Shown: one piece after another, positions 10,640 to 15,056 of the stretch
How positions within the stretch are numbered: the stretch's first letter is position 1
Layout: the number at the start of each line of letters is the position of its first letter
DNA from: a bacterium
GTDB lineage: Bacteria > Patescibacteriota > Minisyncoccia > Phycocordibacterales > UBA2100
Assembly (NCBI GenBank): GCA_030674455.1
Contig: JAUSGQ010000010.1
Coordinates: 1-33,195, forward strand
Direction of reading: 5' to 3'
Length of the DNA stretch: 33,195 bases
Made by a program: the position numbers and the translations under genes
Notes under the pieces: generated by a model
The model's database searches: none
The model's input: the letters and a program-made list of their open reading frames with translations, nothing else
Told to the model about the DNA's origin: nothing

Positions 10640-10678
10640 AAAGAAGGTCGCCAATGGCTTTTGAGTAGATGCAACGGG

Positions 10679-10684
10679 TATACT
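10679..10684 (+). promoter_or_regulatory. -10 box (TATACT) for leaderless recG
   Basis: TATACT then 6 nt (tatccc) then the ATG at 10691. Confidence 0.65.
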
Positions 10685-10690
10685 TATCCC

Positions 10691-13477
10691 ATGCATCCGG
10701 AAGACTTAATCGCAAAGCGTTTCCGACTCGCGCCCGCGCAAGCGACGGCATTGCGTAAACTCGGGCTCATTACGATTCGCGACCTTCTGTACCATTTCCC
10801 TTCCCGATACGAACAGCAGGGTTCCGAATCGAATACGAGACAATTAGTCCCCGGTAAAAAAGTCACTCTCTACGGCACGCTCTCGAAATTAAAAGCGAAG
10901 AAACTCTGGAAAAGCCGGCGCGCAATTACCGAAGGATGGTTTGAAGATGCGACCGGCCGCGTTAAGTGCATGTGGTTCAACCAGCCGTATATCGCGTCAT
11001 ACATTTCCGAAGGAAGTTTCGTGAGATTGGCAGGAACCGTTGGCGGAAGCACAGGTAACCCCTACATCGCTAATCCTGAATTTGAAGTCGTTCCGCCAGG
11101 AAGCACGTCCGCAGGATTGTTTAAAGAAGTCCCGACGCATGGATCGGGACCCCGACAAAACATCGGGGCTAGAAACTCTGTAATTCCTGTCTATCCCGAG
11201 AGCAGGGGCGTAACAAGTCTCTGGTTCTATCACGCAATTCGAAAAGTATGCGAGAACGGCGTGCACAAAACGATTAAAGACCCGATACCGGAAAACATTC
11301 GCAAGAAATACCATTTGCCTGATTTAGCAACCGCACTCATGTTCATTCATTCGCCGGAACAACAAAAACATGCGGAAGCCGCTCGTAAGCGTTTCGCGTT
11401 TGAAGAGATATTTGTAATGCAAACGGCACGCGCCCGGGAACGCGCGCTGAACGATTCGCAAACACCGTTTCAAATCATCAAGGGAGCGTCTTATGTTGAG
11501 AAGTTCCTCTCATCAATCGCTTTCCCTCCTACGCGCGCGCAGAGCCGCGCCATCGCAGATATTCTCAAAGACTTTTCCGGCGCGCACCCGATGGCGCGGC
11601 TCCTCGAAGGAGATGTCGGCGCCGGTAAAACGCTTGTTGCCGCTGCGGCCGCATACGCGGTCGTCCATAGCCGCCCGCCGCTCAAACTCGCCTCCGGCGA
11701 GTTCGGGCGATTGCCTAATGGCGATTTAGCCGTGCGCAACTCCGGCACGCTTCAAGTCGCCTATATGGCTCCCACGGAAATCCTCGCGACACAGCATTTT
11801 CAGTCTTTCATCGAGTATTTTAGCCATCTCCCTATCAATATCGCGCTGATTACAGGCAGCGGCTGTTGGAAATTCCCATCCAAGACGCGGAACTATGCAG
11901 AACAAACGCGGAACGACGCAGAAAAATGGCGAGAACGAGTGACGAACATTTCAAGGGCGCAGTTGTTGAAATGGGTTGAGAATGGAGAAATTGCGATGGT
12001 AGTCGGGACGCATGCGCTTATACAGAAATCAGTAAAATTCCAGAATCTGGCATTCGCGATAGTTGACGAGCAGCACAGGTTCGGAGTCAATCAGCGCAAG
12101 GCGCTGATTCGCAGATTACCGCAAAAAAATGCACCGCAGATTGACGCCGATGGATTCCTATTTAAGGATTTAAGTTATGCGATCCGCAACGCCGCGTTTA
12201 CTGTCCATAACGAACTAGGACGCGGGCATAAAGAAATCGTGTATCAAAACGCGCTTGCAGAAGAGCTTGGGAAACGCAACATTATCTTTTCAAGAGAAAA
12301 ACAGATAGATGTATTATACGGAAGCAAGAAAGTTGGGATATACCAGCCAGACTTTGTTGTGGACGACAAAGTTGTTGTCGAAATAAAGGCGCTGCCTTTT
12401 ACCGGAACACGTGAAAAAACACAGTTGTGGAATTACTTGAAAGGAAGTCCGTACCGTCTTGCTCTCCTCATAAACTTTGGTACAGATTCAGTAGATATCG
12501 TTCGCGTTGTTTTTGACACGGCGCGCAGCAATTTGCGTCAATCTGCGTCTCCTATGCGTTCATCTGCGGAAATGATACCTCATTTCTTATCCATGACAGC
12601 GACTCCGATACCTCGAACGCTCGCTCTCACTATTTATGGCGACCTGGATATTTCCGTTCTGGATGAACTTCCGCCCGGGCGCGCAAAAGTAACGACGCGG
12701 ATAATAAAAAAAGAGGGTCGCGACGAGGCTTACGAAAACGTGAGGCGCGAGCTTGCATCGGGACGGCAAGCATTCGTCGTGTGTCCGCGCATCGACCAGC
12801 CGCAGATTGACGCAGAAAACACGCAGATGAACGCAGATACAAATCCGCGTAAATCTGCGAGAATCTCCTATCAGCGGAAATCTGCGTCTTTGGCGAAATC
12901 AGCAAAAGCAGAGGCGAAACATCTGCAAAAGGTAGTGTTTCCGGAATTCAGGGTGGGACTGCTCCATGGCGCCATGTCTGCCAAAGAAAAAGACAATACT
13001 ATGCGCGATTTTGCTGCAGGAAAAATCCACGTGTTGGTAGCGACTTCGGTAGTTGAAGTCGGCATTAACGTGCCAAATGCGACCGTCATGATGATAGAGG
13101 GGGCGGAACGATTCGGCTTGGCACAACTTCATCAGCTTAGGGGCCGCATCATGCGCTCATCGCATCCGCCGCATTGTTTTCTTCTTCCGGAAACATTCGG
13201 CCAGGTTTCTTCAAAACGTCTACGAGCGCTAGAGAAAAGCGATGACGGATTCAAACTGGCTGAAGCCGACTTAGAGACACGAGGTGCAGGTGATTTGCTC
13301 GGCAAACGCCAATGGGGCATTTCAGACATAGGTATGGAAGCTCTTAAGAATCCGCGACTGATACAAGCCGCCCGCGAGGAGGCATTCGCGCTCGTTCACG
13401 AAGACTCGGCTCTTGGGAATTATCCGGAACTGGCCGCGCGCGCGGAAAGCGTTTCCAAAGCGCTGCACTCGGAGTAA
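10691..13477 (+). CDS. recG: ATP-dependent DNA helicase RecG with inserted GxxExxY nuclease-like domain
   Basis: Remodels stalled replication forks and Holliday junctions. It has the RecG wedge/OB domain (GKKVTLYGTLSKLKAKKLW, GRVKCMWFNQPYI), motif I GDVGAGKTLVA (about residue 308), Ia MAPTEILATQHF, VVGTHALIQ, II VDEQHRFGVNQR (~459), III SMTATPIPRTLALT and V ATSVVEVGINVPNA. Motif VI reads QLRGRIMRSS instead of QLRGRVGRG. At 928 aa it is ~230 longer than typical RecG. Most of the excess is a GxxExxY domain (~482-620) between motifs II and III. Smaller extra segments lie near 147-160, 325-350, 398-415 and 704-735, all made of repeat DNA read in frame. Start chosen at 10691 (MHPEDLIAKRFRLAP) with a -10 box 6 nt upstream. 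Confidence 0.95.
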   Translation: MHPEDLIAKRFRLAPAQATALRKLGLITIRDLLYHFPSRYEQQGSESNTRQLVPGKKVTLYGTLSKLKAKKLWKSRRAITEGWFEDATGRVKCMWFNQPYIASYISEGSFVRLAGTVGGSTGNPYIANPEFEVVPPGSTSAGLFKEVPTHGSGPRQNIGARNSVIPVYPESRGVTSLWFYHAIRKVCENGVHKTIKDPIPENIRKKYHLPDLATALMFIHSPEQQKHAEAARKRFAFEEIFVMQTARARERALNDSQTPFQIIKGASYVEKFLSSIAFPPTRAQSRAIADILKDFSGAHPMARLLEGDVGAGKTLVAAAAAYAVVHSRPPLKLASGEFGRLPNGDLAVRNSGTLQVAYMAPTEILATQHFQSFIEYFSHLPINIALITGSGCWKFPSKTRNYAEQTRNDAEKWRERVTNISRAQLLKWVENGEIAMVVGTHALIQKSVKFQNLAFAIVDEQHRFGVNQRKALIRRLPQKNAPQIDADGFLFKDLSYAIRNAAFTVHNELGRGHKEIVYQNALAEELGKRNIIFSREKQIDVLYGSKKVGIYQPDFVVDDKVVVEIKALPFTGTREKTQLWNYLKGSPYRLALLINFGTDSVDIVRVVFDTARSNLRQSASPMRSSAEMIPHFLSMTATPIPRTLALTIYGDLDISVLDELPPGRAKVTTRIIKKEGRDEAYENVRRELASGRQAFVVCPRIDQPQIDAENTQMNADTNPRKSARISYQRKSASLAKSAKAEAKHLQKVVFPEFRVGLLHGAMSAKEKDNTMRDFAAGKIHVLVATSVVEVGINVPNATVMMIEGAERFGLAQLHQLRGRIMRSSHPPHCFLLPETFGQVSSKRLRALEKSDDGFKLAEADLETRGAGDLLGKRQWGISDIGMEALKNPRLIQAAREEAFALVHEDSALGNYPELAARAESVSKALHSE
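11129..11169. repeat. Double hairpin repeat inside recG
   Basis: Two adjacent stems: gtcccga/tcgggac (11129-11150) and ccccga/tcgggg (11150-11168). Read in frame as VPTHGSGPRQNIGAR between the OB domain and the next RecG segment, where most RecG proteins have a shorter link. Confidence 0.75.
11685..11703. repeat. Small palindrome inside recG after Walker A
   Basis: aactcgcc / ggcgagtt with a 3-base loop. It falls in a segment of roughly 15-25 extra residues between motif I and motif Ia. Confidence 0.65.
11884..11922. repeat. Tandem GCGGAA..GCAGAA repeat inside recG
   Basis: acgcggaactatgcagaa is followed after 2 bases by acgcggaacgacgcagaa, then aa. In frame it gives TRNYAEQTRNDAEKW, an addition before the ISRAQLLKWVENGEI segment. 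It resembles the flanks of the CGCAGAT elements further along recG. Confidence 0.65.
12135..12547 (+). mobile_element. GxxExxY-domain insertion in recG with 13-bp inverted ends
   Basis: Bounded by cgcagattgacgc (12135-12147) and its exact complement gcgtcaatctgcg (12535-12547). The inside is read in frame with recG and encodes a complete GxxExxY protein: DLSYAIRNAAFTVHNELG, the signature G-HK-E-IV-Y, and a PD-(D/E)XK-like core QPDFVVDDKVVVEIKA with Asp, Glu and Lys intact, ending LALLINFG. GxxExxY proteins are normally free-standing and grouped with the PDDEXK nuclease superfamily; their function is unknown. Here the domain sits between helicase motifs II and III. No transposase is present, so how it moved is unknown. 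Confidence 0.85.
12801..12888. repeat. Second CGCAGATTGACGC element in recG, without a domain
   Basis: The same 13-mer cgcagattgacgc (12801-12813) opens a short insert with further cgcagat copies (about 12822 and 12833), then the inverted form aaatctgcg at 12851-12859 and again at about 12879. It is read in frame as QIDAENTQMNADTNPRKSAR..., between VVCPRID and the HGAMSAKEK segment. It looks like an internally deleted copy of the 12135-12547 element. Confidence 0.75.
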
Positions 13478-14427: not shown

Positions 14428-14685
14428 TTACCGATACATATCATGGGTATCAACGTCAACGAATGCGACGGAGCCATCGGGCAGGAAGTCAAACATAATG
14501 CGGTATCTGTTCGTTATGGAAAACGCCCAAAACTTCGAATACTTGCCGTGTAGCTTATGCGTTTCGAGTTTTGGATTGAACGGGTCATCACGAAAGATTA
14601 CTTCCCGTTCTTTTGCGCACCGCTTGACTTCTTCGGGCAGTTTCTTGAACTTCCGACGGAACTGCGAGGCGGTATATATTTCCAT
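14428..14685 (-). CDS. RelE/ParE-superfamily toxin of a toxin-antitoxin pair
   Basis: 85-aa basic protein from the ATG at 14685 (MEIYTASQFRRKFKKLPEEV). The fold pattern is RelE-like: two helices with Arg/Lys, then DPFNPKLETHKLHGKYSKFWAFSITNRYRIMFDF and a C-terminal DVDTHDMY. RelE-type toxins cleave mRNA on the ribosome; ParE-type ones inhibit gyrase. The LETHKLHG...YRIMF strand pattern and His near the end fit the YoeB/YafQ side, but this is not certain. It starts 4 nt after the antitoxin stop, the usual arrangement. Confidence 0.82.
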   Translation of the reverse strand: MEIYTASQFRRKFKKLPEEVKRCAKEREVIFRDDPFNPKLETHKLHGKYSKFWAFSITNRYRIMFDFLPDGSVAFVDVDTHDMYR

Positions 14686-14689
14686 ACCG

Positions 14690-14941
14690 CTACCGTATAT
14701 CGGAAAGCGAGGATAGTTTCTTGAGCTTGCCGGCACGACGTTCCTTGTCGAATATCGCGATGACTTTGTCTATCGATTGCTCTTCTTCGCTGGAGAGAAT
14801 GCCGTACCGGAGATGCCCCGAAACGAAATTACGCGTTGCGGATTTGAGGAAGGCGCTTAGCGTGGTTCCTTCCGTTTTTGCGCGGCGCATGGCGTCACGC
14901 TTCAATTTCTCATCTATTTTAAAAACTACGCTTGTGGTCAT
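14690..14941 (-). CDS. RelB/DinJ-like antitoxin
   Basis: 83 aa from the ATG at 14941. The N-terminus TTSVVFKIDEKLKRDAMRRAKTEGTTLSAFLKSA is a ribbon-helix-helix DNA-binding segment as in RelB/DinJ antitoxins. The rest is charged and helical (SSEEEQSIDKVIAIFDKERRAGKL) and would wrap the toxin. It is transcribed first, from a promoter at 14974-15001 that overlaps a 14-bp palindrome, as expected for autorepression by the antitoxin or the complex. Confidence 0.82.
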   Translation of the reverse strand: MTTSVVFKIDEKLKRDAMRRAKTEGTTLSAFLKSATRNFVSGHLRYGILSSEEEQSIDKVIAIFDKERRAGKLKKLSSLSDIR

Positions 14942-14971
14942 AGAAAATTGCAGTGTCTTAATGGTATAGAT

Positions 14972-15001
14972 AAAGTATATACTTTGTATCACTTTCGTCA
15001 A
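14972..15001 (-). promoter_or_regulatory. Toxin-antitoxin promoter with operator palindrome
   Basis: On the minus strand TTGACG (14996-15001), 16-nt spacer, TATACT (14974-14979). The -10 lies inside the perfect palindrome aaagtatatacttt (14972-14985), a good site for the ribbon-helix-helix antitoxin. Confidence 0.7.
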
Positions 15002-15056
15002 GAACGCCACTTACGGTGTCTTTATAGCTCGATTGATTGGCACAGAATTCTCACAT

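Follow-up and report, generated by a model that had tools for sequence, protein, structure and literature searches.

An in-frame GxxExxY nuclease in RecG of a patescibacterium, probably a small mobile element in its autonomous form

The recG gene of this patescibacterium carries, between two of its helicase motifs, a complete GxxExxY nuclease domain enclosed by arms of inverted repeats. This insert is probably a small mobile element in autonomous form, one of a family whose GxxExxY nuclease is tolerated in protein loops. The comparison brings together filled and empty sites, matched arms, autonomous and deletion copies, conserved catalytic residues and differing nuclease lineages at one site, all drawn from assemblies, nearly all of them metagenomic.

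The insert in recG and its empty counterparts

Within the window, i.e. the whole stretch of 33,195 nucleotides analyzed here, recG occupies positions 10661-13477 of the plus strand as a single uninterrupted frame of 938 amino acids with helicase motifs present. It is the only RecG match in the genome, so the nuclease fusion is the sole RecG found. Residues 502-617 (12164-12511, plus strand) match the Pfam and NCBIfam profiles PF13366 (E 1.2e-30) and TIGR04256 (E 8.1e-32), and scores of 106.7 and 110 bits exceed the curated cut-offs of 22 and 35, respectively, for GxxExxY / PDDEXK_3 (TIGR04256, PF13366). The domain lies after DEQHRFG (motif II) and before SMTATPIPRT (motif III). An earlier note on this DNA had placed a complete GxxExxY domain with its catalytic residues between these motifs, which is borne out by the profile matches and by the presence of E, D and E-x-K. 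No in-frame ATG, GTG or TTG is found just upstream of the domain. Among the copies compared, an ATG precedes the domain in 4 of 25 fused copies versus 33 of 35 stand-alone genes, so a fused nuclease is probably produced only together with its host, as one protein.

Of 30 RecG loci examined in the genus, three contain the nuclease (the window, L142 and L146) and 27 do not, and the stretch from DEQHRFG to ATPIPR, typically 34 residues long when empty, reaches 184 in the window. The nearest empty relative, L143 (79% identical over the searched part), has none of the three inserts that we find in the recG of the window. Judged by these alignments, the nuclease is a mobile insert and not an ancestral part of RecG. 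Descent from an ancestral RecG domain, which the earlier note had named as the finding that would speak against it, is ruled out by the empty sites in the genus, and the same sites support its claim of a self-contained, repeat-bounded element that carries a GxxExxY gene in frame and leaves recG unbroken. Its estimate that recG is some 230 codons too long holds as regards the overlength, the sources of which are three inserts of about 150 (nuclease), 21 and 13 codons in relation to the empty relative.

Alignment of related RecGs, the empty L143 and L144 and the filled L142, places the inserted element (terminal inverted repeat, nuclease, terminal inverted repeat; 459 bp, in frame) at about 12110-12568 of the plus strand, longer than first noted, its edges being set by inference at the repeat units farthest out. 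The left arm consists of an imperfect outer unit, CGCAGATTACCGC (12110-12122, plus strand), recognized by inverted-repeat search and comparison with relatives, and an inner unit, CGCAGATTGACGC (12135-12147, plus strand). The right arm consists of an inner unit that is a perfect inverted copy of the latter (12535-12547, minus strand) and an outer unit, CGCAGATGAACGC (12556-12568, minus strand); these three were located by inverted-repeat and pattern searches. The perfect 13-bp inverted repeat that had been taken for the boundary is therefore present but is not the only boundary, each arm being built of two 13-bp units, and what had looked like one repeat pair belongs to arms of several units and to a repeat family dispersed in the genome. 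A pattern search of the 1.25-Mb genome gives 28 occurrences of the motif CGCAGATNNACGC versus 0 for the reversed control pattern. Six of the 28 copies lie in the recG of the window, where the motif is found again at 12801-12886. There, in the loop after motif IV, a nuclease-less repeat insert with two units one way and two the other (12798-12886, plus strand) adds 63 nt (21 codons) to the empty site. The third insert (11885-11925, plus strand), situated before motif II, holds direct repeats only (ACGCGGAACTATGCAGAACAA...) and adds 39 nt (13 codons); it is common to L142 and, in shorter form, L148. All three inserts add whole codons.

The history of the motif II-III loop seems to have been more than a single insertion. 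RecG of the sister species (L142) is 85% identical to that of the window in its host part and only 59% in the nuclease, and a shared clade of the two nucleases is rejected (p-AU 0.008, for a pair chosen by host identity after the nuclease tree had been seen). Since the two nucleases come from different branches, the RecG site was filled more than once or the element was replaced. The pair L063 and L039, with hosts 88% and nucleases 66% identical (p-AU 0.065), is only suggestive of a second lineage replacement. In further sister species (L157, L166 and L153) the same loop holds other, unrelated palindromes in frame, and it may be a general landing place.

Copies elsewhere and the loops they occupy

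The clearest signs of mobility come from G492, a genome from another part of the phylum. Two 442-bp copies in it are 79% identical over about 450 bp, and their homology stops at the tips of a shared terminal inverted repeat (GTAGTGTCTAGCCACAAATTTAT), beyond which the flanks are unrelated. The same genome has five gene-less pairs of this repeat, 85-89 bp apart, i.e. deletion derivatives of about 87 bp. Two marks of insertion sequences and MITEs, matched terminal inverted repeats and non-autonomous derivatives with the same ends, are found, the second in G492 and at the GatB site of L201 and L204. Beside seven paired elements of G492 we saw no target-site duplication, although very short ones could escape, and this suggests a chemistry unlike that of the usual transposase. 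The window's element has no DDE, HUH, tyrosine or serine transposase, its only Pfam and NCBIfam matches being PDDEXK_3 and GxxExxY. A planctomycete relative has 33 copies of its own terminal inverted repeat versus 0 for the control. In G618 and G492 up to 11 GxxExxY copies are present per small genome, most of them with inverted repeats of their own sequence.

The genome of the window holds a second in-frame copy, inside GatB (L002). It is only 54% identical to the nuclease in recG, and the two copies are old. At the same GatB site, inserts of inverted repeats that lack the nuclease are present in the sister species L201 and L204, and the loop is short in most of the others read. In-frame palindromic DNA within protein-coding genes, by which a Rickettsia palindromic element is recognized, is thus found in both recG (12798-12886) and GatB. 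In-frame repeat units also occur in L004, L028 and L029 of this genome, which we take to be PheS, MnmA and LeuS, respectively. A third, distant GxxExxY gene of the genome stands alone (L003, G000:C49:13346-13663).

In the order, 39 of 297 genomes carry the GxxExxY family, and among the matches listed 13 lie in host frames (nine in RecG, three in LepA, one in GatB). More in-frame cases in RecG and LepA are found elsewhere in the phylum, and the same LepA loop is occupied in seven loci (L032, L036, L067, L077, L178, L179 and L181). The search for other proteins with both RecG and GxxExxY, which the earlier note had proposed, found them, and with them the same domain in unrelated hosts: named records add transketolase and glycosyltransferase as in-frame hosts, and terminal fusions join GxxExxY to HisI (PRA-CH), an aconitase-C protein and a tetrapyrrole methylase. 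Proportions in this host list are biased, because part of it comes from a search seeded with RecG inserts; the order-wide (297 genomes) and phylum-wide searches are unbiased. One glycosyltransferase-like frame (L066:3897-6482) contains two strongly differing GxxExxY domains. No GxxExxY relatives were confirmed in viral contigs. The window itself also has, at 14428-15010 on the minus strand, two overlapping small ORFs that resemble a RelE-type toxin-antitoxin pair and are without a Pfam match.

The recurrent filling of one RecG loop in many lineages and of one LepA loop in seven loci raises the main rival explanation, which we regard as possible though not probable. It is homing, in which the nuclease would cut its host gene (RecG, LepA), where this is unoccupied, in the conserved sequence flanking the loop, and the element would be copied across during repair, much as for inteins and intron homing endonucleases, except that nothing is spliced; the inverted repeats would be secondary. 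Like homing sites, the occupied loops are framed by highly conserved motifs, sister species have different nuclease lineages at one site, and in some cross-family pairs the nucleases are more alike than their hosts (71% versus 53% for L142 and L064). The data are compatible with one nuclease clade for each site but do not favour it (p 0.37 for RecG, p 0.37 for LepA). On the other hand, copies at unrelated sites and short deletion derivatives fit transposition, and, as unrelated palindromes share the RecG loop, recurrence there may reflect tolerance. Homing and arm-directed movement may also be combined.

Repeat arms and their association with the nuclease

The arms are associated with the nuclease. 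Flanks with an inverted match better than that of shuffles (p at most 0.015) are present in 21 of 29 fused cases, while in a few inserts (L065, L070 and L077) the arms are weak or undetectable. The arm units vary between genomes (GAT, GAA or GAC), yet they match within an element; none of 20000 permutations with re-paired arms reached the observed left-right match score. Successive units are 10 or 11 nt apart in 90 of 131 intervals, a distance close to the helical repeat of DNA, and a pair of units amounts to 21 nt, i.e. seven codons. The association extends to stand-alone GxxExxY genes of many phyla, where an inverted-match score of 13 is reached by 27 of 51, versus 7 of 153 swapped flanks. 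Across the 297 genomes of the order, repeats are found in 21 of 39 with the nuclease versus 22 of 258 without it (Fisher 1.9e-10, a statistic that ignores kinship).

Repeats without a nuclease do occur. An order search detected no TIGR04256 match in G054, which has 25 repeat copies, and G016 and G063 are likewise rich in repeats without a detected TIGR04256 gene. For G054 the nuclease may have been lost, have diverged or be absent from the assembly. Such genomes would also be expected if some other enzyme moves the repeat units and the nuclease gene rides along as cargo or as a genome-maintenance factor, an explanation which we find rather unlikely: apart from the strong co-occurrence of repeat and nuclease, the latter is the sole gene of the 442-bp element in G492, and most of the 20 copies examined have matched arms of their own.

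The nuclease, a possible mechanism and known systems

The residues E33, D72, K78, E82 and K84, which include the catalytic E, D and E-x-K, are invariant in 50 homologues. The nuclease has pN of 0.12-0.23 and pS of 0.75-0.95 (used in place of the dN/dS ratio as synonymous sites are saturated), which points to purifying selection. The AF2 model (pLDDT 90.6) matches SSO0001 (Z 9.4), AF1548 (Z 7.9) and Hjc (Z 6.7), and on its strength we confidently predict a PD-(D/E)XK fold with a restriction-endonuclease-like core. Kinship with T7 endonuclease I is not claimed, the profile E value being only 0.084 and the protein being absent from the listed structure matches. A defence gene was rejected on the lack of a PADLOC match. 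An intein is ruled out, as the Pfam and NCBIfam scan of the whole RecG protein gave no HINT splicing domain; so is a self-splicing intron, as no Rfam family of group I or II introns is found in 11800-13000 in a search to E 1, which returned one sub-threshold hairpin match.

The earlier note had seen the meaning of the arrangement in a helicase-nuclease fusion. As a functional fusion, the nuclease would have been recruited to let RecG cut branched DNA. Branched DNA is indeed the substrate of RecG, the active-site residues are retained, and the faint profile resemblance to the junction resolvase T7 endonuclease I and the fold similarity to Hjc are in line with this idea. We nevertheless consider it very improbable, because the hosts are functionally unrelated: the same element sits in GatB, LepA, transketolase and glycosyltransferase, which are unconnected with DNA cleavage. 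Its occurrence is sporadic even inside one genus, and the fusion model (10 sequences, pLDDT 69.6), the modelling of which was carried out as proposed, has low-confidence linkers on both sides, the one feature of it used here. An assembly artefact or a decayed gene, which sequences nearly all from metagenome assemblies might suggest, is hardly credible given the same architecture in different assemblies (L069 and L070; the window, L142 and L146) and frames open across both junctions in every case read.

For the small mobile element we infer that it is moved by its nuclease, which DNA is cut, and that RecG remains functional. The element would consist of terminal inverted repeats of 10/11-bp-phased units (ACGCRGATNN type) around a single PD-(D/E)XK gene. 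The nuclease most likely recognizes the arms, either in duplex form or extruded as a hairpin or cruciform, and would cut at or near them; through repair or recombination the unit would then be copied into a new location or an empty allele. Arm-only deletion derivatives would be moved in trans as MITE-like elements. Copies would be tolerated in variable surface loops of conserved proteins because arms and gene can be read through in the host frame and lengthen it by whole codons; in RecG the domain would be suspended by flexible linkers between motifs II and III.

There is about an even chance that this extends further, to GxxExxY nucleases of many bacterial and archaeal phyla as the mobility enzymes of unnamed minimal elements, in which a lone PD-(D/E)XK nuclease replaces the transposase, generates dispersed palindromes of the ACGCRGAT type and lives unspliced inside host proteins; similar nucleases may then explain the spread of protein-coding palindromes such as the Rickettsia palindromic elements. 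If true, a function would be gained for a nuclease family annotated across many phyla by sequence motif alone, and dispersed palindromic repeats, a widespread class, would have a candidate enzyme. Beside inteins and introns there would be a third way for a selfish gene to reside in an essential gene, as an unspliced, tolerated extra loop domain, and the spread of protein-coding palindromes would become a directly testable question.

Searches of full-text literature that includes few subscription papers and no preprints listed no paper on a GxxExxY mobile element; the name is rare there, in one case incidental, and goes with no title on mobility. By curated cut-off the recG domain is a member of GxxExxY (TIGR04256) / PDDEXK_3 (PF13366), a family normally annotated as a separate gene. 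PD-(D/E)XK homing endonucleases exist, e.g. I-Ssp6803I. Like homing endonucleases and inteins, the nuclease is found at recurrent sites beside conserved motifs, sporadically and replaced by other lineages; unlike them, it has neither HINT domain nor intron, it stays in the protein and it has inverted repeats at its ends. With pairs of insertion sequences and MITEs the element shares terminal inverted repeats, one gene and, within one genome, short deletion derivatives that end alike. It differs from those of the DDE type in that it encodes a PD-(D/E)XK nuclease; scans revealed no transposase domain, target-site duplications were not seen, and copies lie in frame inside proteins. PARCELs are likewise coding palindromes, which spread between genes and genomes, but they are 25-residue tandem repeats, many in membrane proteins, without a nuclease element (PMC2996958). 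Rickettsia palindromic elements (Ogata et al. 2000, 2002) are described as being about 150 bp long, lying in frame in genes and having no mobility enzyme of their own (PMC10969869). As in those elements, palindromic repeats are found here in frame in many unrelated genes and are tolerated by the host protein; compared by description, the elements here differ in the nuclease of their autonomous copies, in the look of their repeat units and in having Patescibacteria as hosts.
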